DNA of 51,611 nucleotides from a bacterium (GTDB lineage Bacteria > Bdellovibrionota_C > UBA2361 > SZUA-149 > JAEUWB01). A program made the position numbers and the translations under genes. Of the stretch, positions 8,537 through 16,023 are shown in pieces. Within the stretch, counting starts at the first letter, position 1. Each line of letters opens with the position of its first letter. The stretch covers positions 1-51,611 of the forward strand of contig JAEUWB010000052.1 of NCBI GenBank assembly GCA_016786595.1. Direction: 5' to 3'. Below the pieces are notes generated by a model that saw only the letters and a list, made by a program, of their open reading frames with translations, had not been told where the DNA came from and ran no database searches.

Positions 8537-8849
8537 TTCGTTTTTGTTGACACCACTTACTTTTTACCTCGGTCTGGGTGCCGTACTTTTTAGTCTAGGG
8601 GCGATTGGTGTTTTAATTCGTAAGAACGTGATTGTTATTTTGATGTGCATCGAATTAATGCTTAACGGTGTTAACCTGACCTTTATCGCTCTTGGTCGAC
8701 ATTTCCAAGACTTAGACACGCATATTTTTACAGTCATGATTATGGCTGTCGCGGCGGCAGAAGCTAGTATTGGTCTAGCAATTGTTGTTTCGATTTTTAG
8801 AAATTTTCTTTCCACTAATGTGGCAGATGCAAATGAGCTTAGAGGTTAG
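8517..8849 (+). CDS. nuoK: NADH-quinone oxidoreductase subunit K
   Basis: NuoK is a three-helix membrane subunit in the proton-translocating arm. I choose the GTG at 8517 because AAGGAG lies about 8 bases upstream and the resulting 110 residues match the usual length of about 100. An upstream ATG would add a hydrophilic leader encoded inside nuoJ. Conserved features are the glutamates in MCIELMLNGVNL and in MAVAAAEASIGLAI, both part of the proton path. The gene overlaps nuoJ by 20 bases and nuoL begins within 3 bases of its stop, indicating coupled translation. Confidence 0.95.
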   Translation: MNPVIANSFLLTPLTFYLGLGAVLFSLGAIGVLIRKNVIVILMCIELMLNGVNLTFIALGRHFQDLDTHIFTVMIMAVAAAEASIGLAIVVSIFRNFLSTNVADANELRG

Positions 8850-8851
8850 TG

Positions 8852-10792
8852 ATGGATTTTAATTTAAGTATGTGGGGCCCACAGTCAACGCACTTGATGT
8901 GGCTAATTCCTTTAATCCCCCTCTTGGGGGCAGCATTTGTTTGGCTTTTTTGCTCAGCTCGACCTGGTCGACATGCGCTTGCCGGCTGGATTGCTACAGC
9001 TGCTGCGCTAGGTAGTTTTGCTATTGCCCTTCAGTTTTTCTTTGCACTACCTGCTAACGGCGAAATTTTAAGTCCACTCTGGCATTGGTTTACAATTGGT
9101 GGCGCTTCGATTGAGTTTGCACTGCGTTTCGACCGACTCTCGGCCCTGATGTGCTTAATTATCACAGGTGTGGGCTCGCTGATTCATCTCTATGCGATCG
9201 GCTATATGGCTGAAGATCAAAGCAGACCGAGATTTTTCAGTTATTTAAATCTATTTTTATTCGCGATGTTGGTACTTGTGCTCGGAGACAGTTTGCCCTT
9301 GATGTTTGTCGGTTGGGAGGGAGTGGGGCTTTGTTCATATTTACTGATTGGTTTTTGGTTTGAAAATCCAGAAAATGCCAAAGCTGGGCAGAAAGCTTTT
9401 ATCGTAAACCGGATTGGAGATGCTGGCTTTATTATCGGAATGTTTACGCTTTTGGCTGCCACAGGCTCACTTACCTTTAGTGAGCTTGTAGGTGGTCCAA
9501 AGTTAGATAGCTGGACTTATGAGCTTGCTGCATTTTGCCTATTCATTGGTGCTATGGGTAAAAGTGCGCAAATCCCACTTTATGTTTGGCTACCCGATGC
9601 GATGGCCGGTCCTACGCCAGTTTCTGCATTAATTCATGCGGCTACAATGGTGACAGCAGGCGTATATATGATGGCGCGGATGGAGTTTGTCTACTCCAAT
9701 GCGCCAATTACTTCGACTCTGATTATGTCCATTGGTGCGTTAACGGCTTTTTTTGCTGCGACGATTGCGCTCGTGCAAAATGATATTAAAAAAGTTTTGG
9801 CATATTCAACTGTCAGTCAGCTGGGCTACATGTTTATGGCAATGGGTGCGGGTGCTTATAGCATGGGCATGTTTCATGTTACGACTCATGCCTTCTTCAA
9901 GGCCTGTCTTTTCATGGGCGCCGGGTCGGTAATCATTGGCTGTCATCACGAACAGGATCTGCGACACTTTGGCGGACTCTGGAAAAAAATGCCCCTGACT
10001 TTTATTACTTATTTGGTAGCAACACTTGCTATTGCAGGTATTCCGCCACTGTCTGGATTTTTCTCTAAAGACTTAATCCTCTGGAGTGTTTTTTCTGATC
10101 ATAGCTATGCTTCGAAAGTCATGGTGTTTGAGGGGCTTGCACTGAATCAATTACTATGGGGACTTGGCTTACTGACGGCTTTTCTTACCGCGTTTTATAT
10201 GACGCGTTCCTTAGTCTTAACTTTCTTTGGAAACTACCGTGGGCACGCACATCCGCATGAGTCCCCCTGGGTGGTGACGCTTCCACTAATTGTCCTAGCT
10301 TTTTTATCCGCTGGATTTGGTTATTTAGCGGGGCATGATTTTCTCCACTATCTAGAGCACTGGACGCGTAAAGATCTAGTACAGATCGATCACCATGATG
10401 AGACCTATCACCAATTAGAGTTGATTTCGATTATTGTGGCAGCCGCTGGTTTTCTTCTAGCGTTTTTACTTTACGCTTTTGTGCCACAATTAGTAGCCGG
10501 ACTGGCACGCTCATTTAGACAGATTTATCGGTTGTTACTGAATAAATGGTGGGTCGATGAATTCTACGAAGCAGTTATCGTTCGGCCATTGACGTTTCTA
10601 GCTAATCTGAGTTTTGCAGCGATCGATCGCGGTGCGATTGATGGCACAGTTAACGGGGTCGGTAATTTTGTTGACGCAAATGGTGAGGCCTTACGGGCTG
10701 TGCACACCGGACGACTGCAGCAATATGCAGCTTTTATGTTTGTCGGACTCTTGCTTTTAGCAGTCGTCTATTTATTGTTTTCAGGAATCTAA
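8852..10792 (+). CDS. nuoL: NADH-quinone oxidoreductase subunit L
   Basis: NuoL is the distal antiporter-like proton pump of complex I with a long lateral helix. The 646-residue length is normal. It shows DSLPLMFVGWEGVGLCSYLLIGFW with the key glutamate, KSAQIPLYVWLPDAMAGPTPVSAL with the key lysine, and HAFFKACLFMGAGS. The ATG at 8852 has AGAGG 6 bases upstream; a GTG at 8849 is a possible alternative. The end, near residue 555 onward, carries the lateral-helix region and a final hydrophobic anchor. nuoM starts 3 bases after the stop. Confidence 0.97.
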   Translation: MDFNLSMWGPQSTHLMWLIPLIPLLGAAFVWLFCSARPGRHALAGWIATAAALGSFAIALQFFFALPANGEILSPLWHWFTIGGASIEFALRFDRLSALMCLIITGVGSLIHLYAIGYMAEDQSRPRFFSYLNLFLFAMLVLVLGDSLPLMFVGWEGVGLCSYLLIGFWFENPENAKAGQKAFIVNRIGDAGFIIGMFTLLAATGSLTFSELVGGPKLDSWTYELAAFCLFIGAMGKSAQIPLYVWLPDAMAGPTPVSALIHAATMVTAGVYMMARMEFVYSNAPITSTLIMSIGALTAFFAATIALVQNDIKKVLAYSTVSQLGYMFMAMGAGAYSMGMFHVTTHAFFKACLFMGAGSVIIGCHHEQDLRHFGGLWKKMPLTFITYLVATLAIAGIPPLSGFFSKDLILWSVFSDHSYASKVMVFEGLALNQLLWGLGLLTAFLTAFYMTRSLVLTFFGNYRGHAHPHESPWVVTLPLIVLAFLSAGFGYLAGHDFLHYLEHWTRKDLVQIDHHDETYHQLELISIIVAAAGFLLAFLLYAFVPQLVAGLARSFRQIYRLLLNKWWVDEFYEAVIVRPLTFLANLSFAAIDRGAIDGTVNGVGNFVDANGEALRAVHTGRLQQYAAFMFVGLLLLAVVYLLFSGI

Positions 10793-10795
10793 ATC

Positions 10796-12301
10796 ATGTA
10801 TCCAACTAGTCTCGACTACACAAATCCTGGTCTCTTAACGATGCTCATGCTTTTGCCATTCTTTGGCGCCTGCTGCATGTTTTTTGTGCCTGTTAAAGAG
10901 GAGCGCTTTGCTCGACTGTTTGCCTCAATTTTTGCCTTTTCCAGTCTATTGCTGAGTTGTTTGATTGCATCAGACTACACGATTAAGTCTAGTGGTTATC
11001 AGTTTGTAGAAAAATTACCTTTTATTACAAATATCGGAGCAGATTACGTTGTAGGGATCGATGGGCTAAGCCTGGTGATGCTGCTGTTGACAACAGCAAT
11101 TTGTTTTCTTGTTATTCTGGCCTCAAGTAGCGTGCATAAGAATATCCGCTCGTACCTGGGCTGCATACTATTTCTCGAGACTGGAATGATTGGTACCTTT
11201 ATAGCCTTAGATGCCTTAACGTTTTACGTCTTTTGGGAAATTATGCTCGTGCCGATGTATTTTATCATCGGTGTCTGGGGTGGAGAGCGGCGAGTCTACG
11301 CCGCAATTAAGTTTGTACTCTATACAGCAATCGGCAGCATCTTGATGTTGGTAGCAATGGTTTATGTCGCCTACCAAAGTCAACTTCAGTTTGGGCAGAT
11401 GACTTTTTACTTGGGAGACTGGCTGCGCTTGAGTTTTTCTCCGACTGAGCAGTTGTATTTGTTTATTGCATTTGCGCTTGCCTTTGCCATTAAAATTCCA
11501 GTTTTTCCATTTCATACCTGGCTGCCGGATGCGCACGTTGAAGCACCAACTGGTGGTTCTGTAATACTAGCTGCAGTCATGTTAAAAATGGGTGTCTATG
11601 GACTTGTGCGCTACGCCATTCCGCTTTTCCCTGAGGGCTTTACATATTGCTTGCCGGTAATCTTTTTGCTCGGAGTCGTCGGGATAGTGCTTGGAGCATT
11701 ATTTGCCTGGGTGCAGACCGATATCAAGAAGCTCATTGCCTATTCTTCTGTCAGTCACCTCGGGTTTTGTGTAGTTGGACTCTGTGCTTTTAATTTTGAC
11801 GGCATTCAAGGAGCGCTTTTGCAGCTTGTCAATCACGGAGTTTCAACCGGGGCGCTATTTCTTTTAGTTGGAGTGCTCTATGACAGGCGTCATACACGAC
11901 TGATTTCTGACTACGGCGGCTTGGCCAAGAAAGTTCCGCATTTTGCAACTTTATTTTTAATTTTTACCCTCAGTTCGATTGGGCTTCCACTGACTAATGG
12001 TTTTATCGGTGAGTTTATGGTGCTAGCTGGCAGCTACCAAGCAGATAAAGTTTATGGACTGATTGCAGTGTCTGGAGTTGTGCTCGGAGCGCTTTACATG
12101 CTTTCACTTTACCGGCGCGTTGTCTTCGGTGAACTCGACCAGGCAAAAAACGGGGAACTTACAGATATTACCTTTACAGAAAGGCTGGTGTTTGCGCCAC
12201 TACTTGTAGCTGTTTTTGCTTTGGGACTTTTCCCGACATTGGTGCTTGATCTACTTGAACCGACAAGCCGAAATTTAATCTCAGAGGTTGGCCAACGATG
12301 A
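10796..12301 (+). CDS. nuoM: NADH-quinone oxidoreductase subunit M
   Basis: NuoM is the second antiporter-like proton-pumping subunit. The 501-residue protein has about 14 hydrophobic segments. Motifs include YVFWEIMLVPMYFIIGVWGG with the conserved glutamate, AIKIPVFPFHTWLPDAHVEA with the conserved lysine, and LKMGVYGLVRY. The stop codon overlaps the start of nuoN (ATGA), so their translation is coupled. Confidence 0.97.
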   Translation: MYPTSLDYTNPGLLTMLMLLPFFGACCMFFVPVKEERFARLFASIFAFSSLLLSCLIASDYTIKSSGYQFVEKLPFITNIGADYVVGIDGLSLVMLLLTTAICFLVILASSSVHKNIRSYLGCILFLETGMIGTFIALDALTFYVFWEIMLVPMYFIIGVWGGERRVYAAIKFVLYTAIGSILMLVAMVYVAYQSQLQFGQMTFYLGDWLRLSFSPTEQLYLFIAFALAFAIKIPVFPFHTWLPDAHVEAPTGGSVILAAVMLKMGVYGLVRYAIPLFPEGFTYCLPVIFLLGVVGIVLGALFAWVQTDIKKLIAYSSVSHLGFCVVGLCAFNFDGIQGALLQLVNHGVSTGALFLLVGVLYDRRHTRLISDYGGLAKKVPHFATLFLIFTLSSIGLPLTNGFIGEFMVLAGSYQADKVYGLIAVSGVVLGALYMLSLYRRVVFGELDQAKNGELTDITFTERLVFAPLLVAVFALGLFPTLVLDLLEPTSRNLISEVGQR

Positions 12302-13761
12302 CAACAAAAGACATAATTGCGTCAGCTCCGTATGTTGCGATGGTACTTGGTGCCATTAGTTTAATGATTTTTGGGGATCGATCGGCAAAAGACAAGGACG
12401 CTGTCAGTATTCGGGCGGCACTCGGATCGTTTTGGTGTCTGATTGCCTTGATCTTGACTTTCCCGGCGATTGCTAATCCTGGGTCGACCTTCTCTGGGTT
12501 GATTATGTTTGACGGGTTTACCTTCGTCTTGGTCTTAATTTTGCTTTTAGGAACAATGCTGAGTTTGCTTTTAACTGATGGGACTCTAGCGGCTCAGCGT
12601 TTGGAGCGGACTGCTGATCTCGAGGCGCTGATGATTTTCGCCACACTTGGCGGGATGGTCATGGTTTCTGCTGCCGAGTTAATTACACTGTTTATTGGCC
12701 TAGAGCTTTTATCAATCTCGGTCTATGCGCTTGCCGGAATGGCTCGCACGGAGCGTGCGTCGGCTGAGGCCGCACTGAAGTATTTTGTGCTCGGATCTTT
12801 TAGCTCGGCATTTATGCTCTATGGCATCGCGCTAATTTATGGAGTGACTGGCTCGACTGAATTGCTTGCGATTGGTAATGCCTTGCATGGACAGCCTTCT
12901 GTGCTCTTACTTTTAGGCTTTGCTTTTCTCGTCTTTGGTTTTGGTTTTAAAGTCAGCTTAGTGCCATTCCACTTTTGGACCCCAGACGTTTATCAAGGCT
13001 CTCCATTATCTGCTACCGCGTACATGGCAGTAGTGGTGAAGACTGCAGCATTCGGAGCATTCTTGCGCGTGATGCTCACCAGCTTTAGCCAGCTTGATTA
13101 TTACACAGGTCCTTTTATCTGGACTTTAGCTGTGGCTACAATGAGTGTTGGAAATTTACTGGCACTTCGTCAAGATAGCGTTAAGCGCATGCTTGCCTAT
13201 TCAAGCATCGCACACGCTGGCTATTTGTTAATGGGCGTTCTCGTATTAGCTAATCAATTCGGCGGTGCAGAATCAATTGTTTTTTACTTACTGACTTATA
13301 CCTTAATGACTATTGGTTCATTCGGAGTGGTTTTGCTTTTAACCTTAGGCTCTACGCGGCAATACAGCGCAGATAGTATTCAGAGTTTACGCGGTAAGGG
13401 TTGGACCAGCCCATTTTTAGCATTGTGCTTAACGATTAGCTTGCTCTCCCTGGGCGGGATTCCACCGCTGGCTGGCTTTATGGGCAAACTTTACATGTTT
13501 AAGGCTGCAATCACTGGTGGTTATACAGGCTTAGTGATTATTGCAGCGCTAAATTCTGTGATTTCACTTTATTATTACCTGCGGATTGTGGTTGTGATGT
13601 ATTTTCAGGAGGCCAAGGCTAACGAGTCGATTGTGCATGTGCAATTACGCTTTGCGCCAGTAGCAGCAATTGCAATTGTCAGTGCTGGAATGTGCTACAT
13701 CGGCATTTTTGCCAGCCAGTATTATGGATTAGCTGAATATGCTATAGGGTCAGTCAGATGA
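12298..13761 (+). CDS. nuoN: NADH-quinone oxidoreductase subunit N
   Basis: NuoN is the third antiporter-like subunit, next to NuoK and NuoJ in the complex. The 487-residue protein shows TLFIGLELLSISVYALAGM with the conserved glutamate, GFKVSLVPFHFWTPDVYQG with the conserved lysine, and GGIPPLAGFMGKLYMF. It overlaps nuoM by four bases at its start and purB by four bases at its end, so the last respiratory gene is coupled to a purine gene. Confidence 0.97.
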   Translation: MTTKDIIASAPYVAMVLGAISLMIFGDRSAKDKDAVSIRAALGSFWCLIALILTFPAIANPGSTFSGLIMFDGFTFVLVLILLLGTMLSLLLTDGTLAAQRLERTADLEALMIFATLGGMVMVSAAELITLFIGLELLSISVYALAGMARTERASAEAALKYFVLGSFSSAFMLYGIALIYGVTGSTELLAIGNALHGQPSVLLLLGFAFLVFGFGFKVSLVPFHFWTPDVYQGSPLSATAYMAVVVKTAAFGAFLRVMLTSFSQLDYYTGPFIWTLAVATMSVGNLLALRQDSVKRMLAYSSIAHAGYLLMGVLVLANQFGGAESIVFYLLTYTLMTIGSFGVVLLLTLGSTRQYSADSIQSLRGKGWTSPFLALCLTISLLSLGGIPPLAGFMGKLYMFKAAITGGYTGLVIIAALNSVISLYYYLRIVVVMYFQEAKANESIVHVQLRFAPVAAIAIVSAGMCYIGIFASQYYGLAEYAIGSVR

Positions 13762-15077
13762 TTCCCCGCTATACACGAAAAGAAATGGCGCAAATTTGGA
13801 CCGATGAAAGCCGGTTTAAGATTTGGCTTGAGATTGAAACCTATGCACTTGAAGCCATGGTCGCAAAAGGCCTGGCGCCGCAGAGCGCACTTGATGCCGT
13901 AATTAAGCAGGCAAAATTTGATGTTGCCCGGATTAATGAACTTGAGCGCGAACTTAAGCACGACGTAATTGCATTTTTGACTAACGTGTCAGAGTCTGTC
14001 GGGGAGTCTTCGCGCTATTTGCATTTGGGCTTAACTTCCTCGGATGTGCTTGATACCTGCCTTTCTGTGCAACTGACTCAGGCAACTGATTTGATTATTA
14101 CTGGGGTTAAGGCGCTTCTTGAGTCAATTAAGCAGCGTGCCTTAGAGCATAAATTAACTCCTTGCATCGGACGATCGCACGGGATTCATGCAGAACCTAC
14201 GACATTTGGACTAAAACTTGCGCTTTATTATGCTGAACTACAGCGCCACCTTGTGAGGCTCAAAGCTGCGCGCGAGGACATTGCAGTTGGCGCAGTCTCT
14301 GGTCCGGTTGGAACTTTTGCTCACTTAGGCACCTATGTAGAGGCACACGTCTGCAAACGCTTAGGCTTAAAACCAGAAACAGTCTCTACGCAAGTGATCC
14401 AACGCGATCACCATGCGCGAATTTTTAATGCCTATGCTGAAGTTGGGGCAACCTTAGAAAAGCTTGCGATTGAAGTCCGCCATCTGCAACGCACCGAGGT
14501 GCGTGAGGCGGAGGAGCCATTTACTGTCGGACAGAAGGGTTCAAGTGCCATGCCTCACAAGCGCAACCCAGTGCTTTCCGAAAATGTCACTGGCTTGGCA
14601 AGATTACTTCGTCACTGGGCTGGGGCTGCACTTGAAAACGTAGCGCTCTGGCATGAACGCGATATTAGTCACTCCAGTGTTGAGAGAGTGATTGGGCCAG
14701 ACGCGACAATTACACTGGATTTTATGTTGCACAGAATGCGCAGTGTAATTGACGGGCTAGTTGTTTACCCCGAGAACATGCAACGCAACTTAGACCTAAC
14801 TAAAGGGCTTTATTATTCCGCGCAGTTACTGGTTGAGCTTGCTGCGGCGGGCACTTCACGCGATGAAGCTTATCGCAAAGTTCAAGCTATCTCAATGCAA
14901 CTCTGGGACGAATTAAGCAGTGCTACAGAACGCAGTAAGGTTAAGTCCCTGGCCGAACGCATCCAAGCCGAAAAGTTTTTCGTCGATAAGCTGGGCAGTG
15001 AAAAACTTGCACAGATCTTTTCTTTAGATTCATACACTGAATATGTCGATGAAATTTTTAGGCGAGTTTTTAATTAG
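13758..15077 (+). CDS. purB: Adenylosuccinate lyase
   Basis: PurB splits fumarate from SAICAR and from adenylosuccinate in purine synthesis, in the cytoplasm. The 439-residue protein shows the fumarase/aspartase superfamily signature SSAMPHKRNP, the TSSDVLDT block with a catalytic-region serine and threonine, and GRSHGIHAEPTTFG with the active-site histidine. Its length matches the B. subtilis-type enzymes. The start overlaps the nuoN stop (ATGA), and purS begins 2 bases after its stop, so nuoN-purB-purS-purQ is one transcript segment. The link of complex I to purine genes is probably positional rather than functional. Confidence 0.97.
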   Translation: MIPRYTRKEMAQIWTDESRFKIWLEIETYALEAMVAKGLAPQSALDAVIKQAKFDVARINELERELKHDVIAFLTNVSESVGESSRYLHLGLTSSDVLDTCLSVQLTQATDLIITGVKALLESIKQRALEHKLTPCIGRSHGIHAEPTTFGLKLALYYAELQRHLVRLKAAREDIAVGAVSGPVGTFAHLGTYVEAHVCKRLGLKPETVSTQVIQRDHHARIFNAYAEVGATLEKLAIEVRHLQRTEVREAEEPFTVGQKGSSAMPHKRNPVLSENVTGLARLLRHWAGAALENVALWHERDISHSSVERVIGPDATITLDFMLHRMRSVIDGLVVYPENMQRNLDLTKGLYYSAQLLVELAAAGTSRDEAYRKVQAISMQLWDELSSATERSKVKSLAERIQAEKFFVDKLGSEKLAQIFSLDSYTEYVDEIFRRVFN

Positions 15078-15079
15078 TT

Positions 15080-15322
15080 ATGAAAGCAACAATTTTAGTC
15101 CGTTATAAAAAGGAAGTTCCTGACCATGCGGGTAGTGTGCTGCACGAGCGCTTGCATACTTTGGGCTATACGGAAGTCAAAACTGCTGCGCTGGGTAAAC
15201 TGATTGAGCTTGAAATTGAATCAGCAGATCGTGGCAATGCTCAAGAGCGCGTGCGACAAATTGCCTCGCAGATTCTAGCAAACCAATTAACTGAAGAATT
15301 TGAAATCTTAAGCCTCGACTAG
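15080..15322 (+). CDS. purS: FGAM synthase subunit PurS
   Basis: PurS is the small structural subunit that bridges PurL and PurQ in the multi-protein formylglycinamidine ribonucleotide synthase. The 80-residue protein has the usual ferredoxin-like pattern and length, starting MKATILVRYKKEVPDHAGS and containing the family motif LGYTEVKTAALGKLIELEI. Organisms with PurS use a small PurL and a separate PurQ, in contrast to the fused enzyme of E. coli. PurL is not in this window. purS sits between purB and purQ with very short gaps. Confidence 0.92.
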   Translation: MKATILVRYKKEVPDHAGSVLHERLHTLGYTEVKTAALGKLIELEIESADRGNAQERVRQIASQILANQLTEEFEILSLD

Positions 15323-15339
15323 AGCCGAGTTTGGCGATT

Positions 15340-16023
15340 ATGCGTATCAGTATTATCGAATTCCCTGGTTCTTATGGTGCAGCCGAAGCGCTGCATAGCT
15401 TCAAGACGGTGCTTGGCTTAGATGCGCGTATCATCGACCACGGGGCACAGGGGCTTGAGCAGCCAGAGGTAGTGATTCTACCCGGTGGGGCTGCCTATGG
15501 AGATTTCCTTCGACCCGGGTGCTTAGCGAAAGTTTCACCGATTGCCATGCCTCTACGACGTTTTGCCAGAGAAGGCGGCAGAATTTTTGGTTTTGGTAAT
15601 GGATTCCAAATCCTTTGTGAAATGGGCTTACTGCCTGGAGCATTTTTACCAAATCAAGGTTTAAGTCGGTTTATTGGCAATGCGAGCCTCAAGTCTGCGG
15701 CCTCAGTCTATGCCGGTGGGGCAAGTAAGTTGGCTAGTGATTTGACTTTCAAGCTTCCTGTGTCTGCTTCGCATGCAGCCTACTATGTTTCTAGCCGTGC
15801 TCTGCAAGAGCTTAAGGAAGATAAAATGATTGTGCTTCAATACACTAACAAGCACGGTGAAGTTGATCCAAAGCAGGCATTTCTTGGTTCGGTTGAGTCA
15901 ATTGCCGGTGTTTGTAATAAGCAAGGAAATATTTTAGGTCTGATTCCTCAGCCCGAAAGGGCAGTGGAGGAGATTATGGGTTCGCTTGAAGGCAAGCGCT
16001 TCCTTGATTTGGCTTTAAGTTAA
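15340..16023 (+). CDS. purQ: PurQ-like protein lacking glutaminase residues
   Basis: By position and overall sequence this is PurQ, the class I glutamine amidotransferase subunit that feeds ammonia to PurL. The fold is recognisable: FPGSYG near the start, ILPGGAAYGDFLRPG, GNGFQILCEMGLLPGAF and GLIPQPERAVEEIMGS. However the nucleophile position (Cys86 in B. subtilis, in GVCNGFQIL) is Gly86 (GFGNGFQIL), the catalytic His of PHPERA is Gln204, and the AHGEG loop is replaced. Only Glu206 of the triad remains. The frame is intact over 227 residues, so it is not a simple pseudogene. It may act as a structural subunit of an ammonia-dependent enzyme or have a new role. The ATG at 15340 is preferred over a TTG at 15331 by alignment. 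Confidence 0.85.
   Translation: MRISIIEFPGSYGAAEALHSFKTVLGLDARIIDHGAQGLEQPEVVILPGGAAYGDFLRPGCLAKVSPIAMPLRRFAREGGRIFGFGNGFQILCEMGLLPGAFLPNQGLSRFIGNASLKSAASVYAGGASKLASDLTFKLPVSASHAAYYVSSRALQELKEDKMIVLQYTNKHGEVDPKQAFLGSVESIAGVCNKQGNILGLIPQPERAVEEIMGSLEGKRFLDLALS

Follow-up and report, generated by a model that had tools for sequence, protein, structure and literature searches.

A putative pseudo-FGAM-synthase of three subunits in an order of Bdellovibrionota_C

The window, by which we mean the whole stretch of 51,611 nucleotides analysed here (contig JAEUWB010000052.1; GTDB lineage Bacteria; Bdellovibrionota_C; UBA2361; SZUA-149; JAEUWB01), encodes a PurQ-like protein without the residues expected of a glutaminase. 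Its gene, purQ', lies next to purS, and the genome also encodes a small PurL (PurL') in which the synthase motifs are lost. We consider it fairly likely that PurS, PurQ' and PurL' form a pseudo-FGAM-synthase that became redundant beside a large PurL and was retained for a role other than FGAM synthesis. The trio has probably taken on another job, perhaps in glutamine or nucleotide sensing or in scaffolding.

Results

The purQ' gene (15340..16023, + strand) encodes a PurQ-like pseudo-glutaminase of 227 amino acids, assigned from its translation, profile matches, alignment and fold. The translation is free of stops over its full length and includes RIFGFGNGFQIL and LGLIPQPERA; translation might begin earlier, at the in-frame TTG at 15331. 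The product belongs to the PurQ family and fold. It matches GATase_5 above cut-off, falls just under the curated cut-off of TIGR01737 (E 1e-51), and reaches 185 bits against NCBIfam PRK03619 (E 9.5e-55; curated cut-off 212). Its predicted model has a pLDDT of 81 and finds T. maritima PurQ (3d54_D) as the best Foldseek match. Aligned with active PurQs, it has Gly86 (GGT, 15595..15597, +) in the slot of the nucleophile Cys, Gln204 (CAG, 15949..15951, +) under the His of PHPER, with the next Glu206 retained, and S-A-S-H-A at codons 142-146 (15763..15777, +) in place of A-H-G-E-G. A first-pass annotation had reported the intact frame together with these three alterations, all of which are borne out by translation and alignment, and we share its expectation that glutaminase activity should be absent, given the residues lost.

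The window's order is represented in our collection by 15 genomes from 10 families, including that of the window (G000); all are drafts from uncultured bacteria. Gly86 is found in 10/10 alignable PurQs of the order, so that the nucleophile Cys of G-x-C-N-G-F-Q is missing from the window and from all of these members. At the DNA level, a pattern demanding Gly for Cys was met in 11 genomes, all within the order, and in 0/30 other genomes of the phylum. Since Gly recurs in these 11 genomes with differing codons (GGT, GGA or GGC), a sequencing or base-call error or chance at codon 86 can be ruled out. Relatives in the same class outside the order have GICNGFQ and PHPER. The comparison with relatives that had been proposed at first pass thus finds the Cys-to-Gly change conserved order-wide; loss of the catalytic His is restricted to the window (Gln) and to G003 and G006 (Arg), and seven relatives retain His (THPER, HHPER, AHPER or PHPER). 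In trees, the dead PurQs form one group with full support, as do the dead PurLs. Long acidic C-terminal tails with runs of Asp and Glu were seen in PurQ' of G010 (L080:2570-3328) and G001 (L076:17512-18261).

The purS gene, encoding 80 amino acids (15080..15322, +; PF02700 E 4.1e-19; TIGR00302 above cut-off), lies directly upstream of purQ'; of the three subunits, PurS varies least across the order. The adenylosuccinate lyase gene purB (13758..15077, +) emerged from the neighbourhood comparison as a conserved neighbour outside the proposed complex; the earlier description of purS and purB as normal neighbours was right as to position. The adjacency of purS-purQ' to purB recurs in several genomes of the order and counts against a pseudo-FGAM-synthase with a non-FGAM role. 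A gene for an MBL-fold hydrolase is also found near purS-purQ'. The purL' gene is near a DnaK/Hsp70-like gene in five genomes of the order (L005:8831-10729, L076:10094-12007, L087:5203-7095, L088:6212-8095 and L089:12093-13979), near ispH in four and near a gene for LL-diaminopimelate aminotransferase in three. No common functional theme was found in the purL' and purS-purQ' neighbourhoods of the order. Positions 8849-16023 of the window hold nuo genes, purB, purS and purQ' in succession, and the association of nuo with purS-purQ' repeats in G012 and G001.

The small PurL' of the window's genome (773 amino acids) is encoded on a separate contig (G000:C33) and scores 324 bits against PRK01213, for which the cut-off is 648. 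We compared the motifs of PurL' from nine genomes of the order with those of seven active PurLs. Wherever PurL' covers HCSYKS, ESHNHPS and GGILRD, these motifs are lost (one of the nine does not cover HCSYKS as aligned), and all three are intact in 7/7 active controls. The window's PurL' reads DCSQKS in the HCSYKS slot and has lost additional motifs beyond these three, among them HDLSxGG, which most PurL' of the order retain. The PurL' of the order are less alike in the N-terminal half (35.5% mutual identity) than in the C-terminal half (45.3%), and the reverse holds for the controls (71.8% and 51.8%); the low value of the N-terminal half, which holds the active site, implies that constraint has gone from the catalytic half of the protein. 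The fold appears to be kept, in that an AlphaFold2 model built with ten sequences of the order has a mean pLDDT of 77 and superimposes on T. thermophilus PurL (3viu) with a Z score of 49.9 and an rmsd of 2.5 Å over 689 aligned residues. A weak match to tegu_FGAM_synt (E 8e-9) is expected for any PurL fold.

Because the glutaminase and the synthase sites are both dead, the trio should not act as an FGAM synthase. This bears on the proposal, made at first pass, that FGAM synthesis might rely on free ammonia, with PurQ' merely structural and PurL' using ammonia directly. Such an enzyme might be suspected from the Gly-for-Cys change that the order has in common with Sporosarcina and others, whose PurL has kept SEHCSYK and most of the remaining motifs. 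In the order itself, the synthase motifs are missing from PurL' too, so that the proposal fits poorly, and purine synthesis has a complete large PurL at its disposal; we regard ammonia-dependent FGAM synthesis by the trio as scarcely credible and have rejected it for the order.

That large PurL is a fused protein of 1242 amino acids encoded on another contig of the window's genome (G000:C39; PRK05297, 1303 bits). Its GATase domain has GVCNGCQ, AHGEG and PHLER, with Cys, His and Glu intact, and its synthase motifs are intact too. Judged by this complete set of motifs, it can serve purine synthesis. Two sources of activity had been suggested in the first-pass annotation: the large fused PurL was found as described, and no second active stand-alone PurQ was detected in the genome, where only the C-terminal domain of the large PurL matched. 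The large PurL is present in 13/15 genomes of the order. Searches of the class controls returned small PurL only, and the large, E. coli-type protein was probably gained by the order from outside.

The loss of catalytic residues, the long branch of the window's PurL' and raised pN/pS values in one pair of genomes could all be signs of an evolutionary relic in decay. Synonymous sites proved saturated in the pairs used with the NG86 method, and pN/pS was hence compared. For PurL' the values are 0.12 in G012-G009 (same genus) and 0.25-0.30 within family f2, and for PurQ' 0.22 in G001-G010; the active large PurL gives 0.18 in G012-G009 and 0.29-0.32 in family f2. Higher values were obtained for PurQ' in G011-G005 (0.42) and for both proteins in G003-G006 (PurQ' 0.45, PurL' 0.53). 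As the values are mostly as low as those of the active enzyme, the trio does not appear to be decaying, and PurL' and PurQ' are, by this measure in relatives of the window's lineage, under purifying selection. One neutral change per codon should have produced about 33 stops in PurL' and 10 in PurQ'; none was observed, and PurQ' frames are intact in eight families. Divergence is greatest in the PurL' of the window's genome (branch 2.24), which had no near neighbour to pair with for pN/pS and has lost further motifs; decay specific to its lineage is therefore conceivable, but 773 codons free of stops argue against it. By pN/pS, decay is largely refuted and in our view very improbable. Across the order, identity to the proteins of the window's genome is 40-51% for PurS, 34-40% for PurQ', 26-34% for PurL', 53-57% for the large PurL and 56-63% for PurB.

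The distribution of the trio was compared with that of the purine pathway. G003 and G006, each 92% complete, encode PurS, PurQ' and PurL'. In these draft genomes from uncultured organisms our searches found no large PurL, no PurF above cut-off (only GlmS/AsnB-like matches) and no PurD of normal score. The purH gene of G003 lies on a contig of 258 kb with no purD nearby; other members of the order have purH and purD close together. G003 has PurH and lacks PurC, and G006 has a diverged PurC and lacks PurH; from this mixed pattern, the purine pathways of both genomes are partial remnants. The same mixed signal led us to set PurC and PurH aside as markers of auxotrophy. The converse case is G002 (95% complete), which has purF, purD, purH, purC and the large PurL and lacks PurS, PurQ' and PurL'. 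The trio is thus separable from purine synthesis, being kept even by relatives that apparently cannot make purines. Its co-occurrence is imperfect in incomplete genomes, with PurL' alone in G008, G009 and G013, and PurS and PurQ' without PurL' in G011 and G014.

These patterns also bear on whether the trio is a regulatory partner of the large PurL or of purine flux, in the way that viral pseudo-FGARATs act with a cellular enzyme. Most genomes with the trio also have the large PurL, purS-purQ' often adjoins purB, and there is a precedent in vGATs that recruit cellular PFAS (PMC10820379). A sole role of this kind is spoken against by G003 and G006, in which the trio occurs without large PurL, purF and purD, and G002 shows that a large PurL can do without the trio. 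We consider regulation of this type unlikely.

Discussion

The trio seems to fit the description of a pseudoenzyme: it is homologous to an enzyme, has lost catalytic residues, and is retained under what appears, in relatives, to be purifying selection. The data favour a structural or regulatory PurQ, an option already listed in the first-pass annotation. In the scheme we propose, the order would descend from an ancestor with a conventional, active PurS-PurQ-PurL, the arrangement that relatives in the class have today. The additional E. coli-type PurL would then have made FGAM, rendering the three-subunit enzyme redundant, and the glutaminase and synthase active sites of the trio would subsequently have been lost. 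A function without need for FGAM chemistry, whether old or newly acquired, would explain why fold and frame of the assembly were kept. We infer that PurS, PurQ' and PurL' still form a complex and bind ligands.

PurQ' retains PGG-x-(S/A)-(F/Y)-GD-(Y/F)-LRPG and NGFQ, which we take to surround the glutamine pocket, as in class I amidotransferases. The solved structures that match the PurQ' model include 4wio, a Cys-to-Ala amidotransferase with bound glutamine. Considered with the retained pocket residues, this structure suggests that PurQ' could bind glutamine without hydrolysing it. As the most likely function we accordingly favour a non-catalytic module that senses or scaffolds: PurQ' would hold glutamine or a similar ligand through the PGG...GDYLRPG strand-loop and NGFQ, and PurL' would bind a nucleotide or a partner through its C-terminal half, the better conserved of the two. 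A more specific version is a purine-independent sensor, in which PurQ' binds unhydrolysed glutamine, nucleotide binding falls to the C-terminal half of PurL', and some process outside purine synthesis is under the control of the trio across the order; we put this forward tentatively, as possible and yet doubtful.

Near-invariant new positions were noted in both dead subunits: Arg153 (R153) of PurQ', invariant across 10/10 aligned PurQs of the order, and, in PurL', PM of the FPPML linker and D, W and D of LEDxWLD. From their conservation, R153, FPPML and LEDxWLD are the first candidates for new contacts. They would also suit a trio that has gained a new catalysis, in which another substrate is handled by a remodelled pocket or by PurL' through its C-terminal half, and PurQ' has a structural or gating part; that half of PurL' is conserved nearly as in active PurL, and genomes lacking purF and purD still keep the trio. 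We recognised no new active-site motif, however, and HDLSxGG, kept in most members, is lost in the window's copy. A new catalysis therefore strikes us as rather unlikely.

Pseudoenzymes are usually single proteins, whereas in this metabolic enzyme of three subunits both of the catalytic ones have lost their active sites and the set is retained. Retention of the trio without purF, purD and an active FGAM synthase would separate the structural value of the complex from its chemistry, and the order offers a natural setting in which to test FGAM synthase for moonlighting. Annotation of purQ and purL by homology would falsely predict a purine pathway in such genomes.

Compared with the PurS-PurQ-PurL FGAM synthase of the B. 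subtilis and T. maritima type (3d54), the trio has the same three subunits, folds and purS-purQ pair, but lacks the glutaminase Cys, the AHGEG loop and all three synthase motifs of PurL, and would be dispensable for purine synthesis where the large PurL exists. The large fused PurL of the same genome has domains homologous to those of the trio but is active by motif. Gammaherpesvirus vGATs are pseudo-FGARATs without catalytic residues that work via cellular PFAS (PMC10820379). These members of the viral FGARAT (ORF75) family are, like the trio, descendants of FGAM synthase without the residues needed for catalysis. They are viral, single fused chains of the large PurL type, whereas the trio is bacterial, has three subunits of the small PurL lineage and has no viral link; the resemblance goes no further than kind. 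Archaea have been described with a Cys-less PurF' and with an extra PurQ that has decayed (PMC3261824). These share with PurQ' the loss of catalytic residues from a purine amidotransferase subunit, but each is a lone protein, one of the two being a truncated fragment, and they differ in this from the order-wide double loss in PurQ and PurL. Searches of the open-licence PMC literature turned up neither an account of a bacterial FGAM synthase that has lost both active sites yet kept its subunits nor a paper treating PurQ, PurL and pseudoenzyme together.

A genome scan found Gly-for-Cys PurQs elsewhere, in Sporosarcina, Lederbergia citrea, Armatimonadetes, a Clostridia MAG and a Saprospiraceae MAG. 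The first four have the same Cys-to-Gly change, but the PurL alongside keeps SEHC(S/G)YK and most motifs. Such PurQs with mostly intact PurLs count against the pseudo-FGAM-synthase reading; the PurQ' of the order form their own group in the tree, apart from the others. At the Gly-for-Cys PurQ locus of the Saprospiraceae MAG (L116) we detected no PurL, and in Armatimonadetes (L127, L132) the gene adjoins a PurL with ESHNHPS. In Bacillota, the Gly-PurQ adjoins a PurL with SEHCSYK in which ESHNSPS replaces ESHNHPS; this was seen in Sporosarcina (L117, L119, L125, L128, L143, L148, L160, L166 and L179), in Lederbergia citrea (L173), in the Clostridia MAG (L145) and in a locus labelled Arthrobacter (L118). 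Among loci readable for both sites, a Cys PurQ goes with His in 29/29, and a Gly PurQ with Ser in 12/14 and with His in 2/14. Pairs of Gly-PurQ and ESHNSPS PurL are possible ammonia-dependent FGAM synthases. Sporosarcina pasteurii is reported to need ammonia and to be without glutamine synthetase and glutamate synthase activity (PMC7775470), and we hypothesize that the Gly-PurQ/ESHNSPS pair is linked to this requirement. The pur genes of L118 (NZ_JADHDX010000011.1, titled Arthrobacter beigongshangensis) are Sporosarcina-like, which makes the label or the purity of this entry doubtful.
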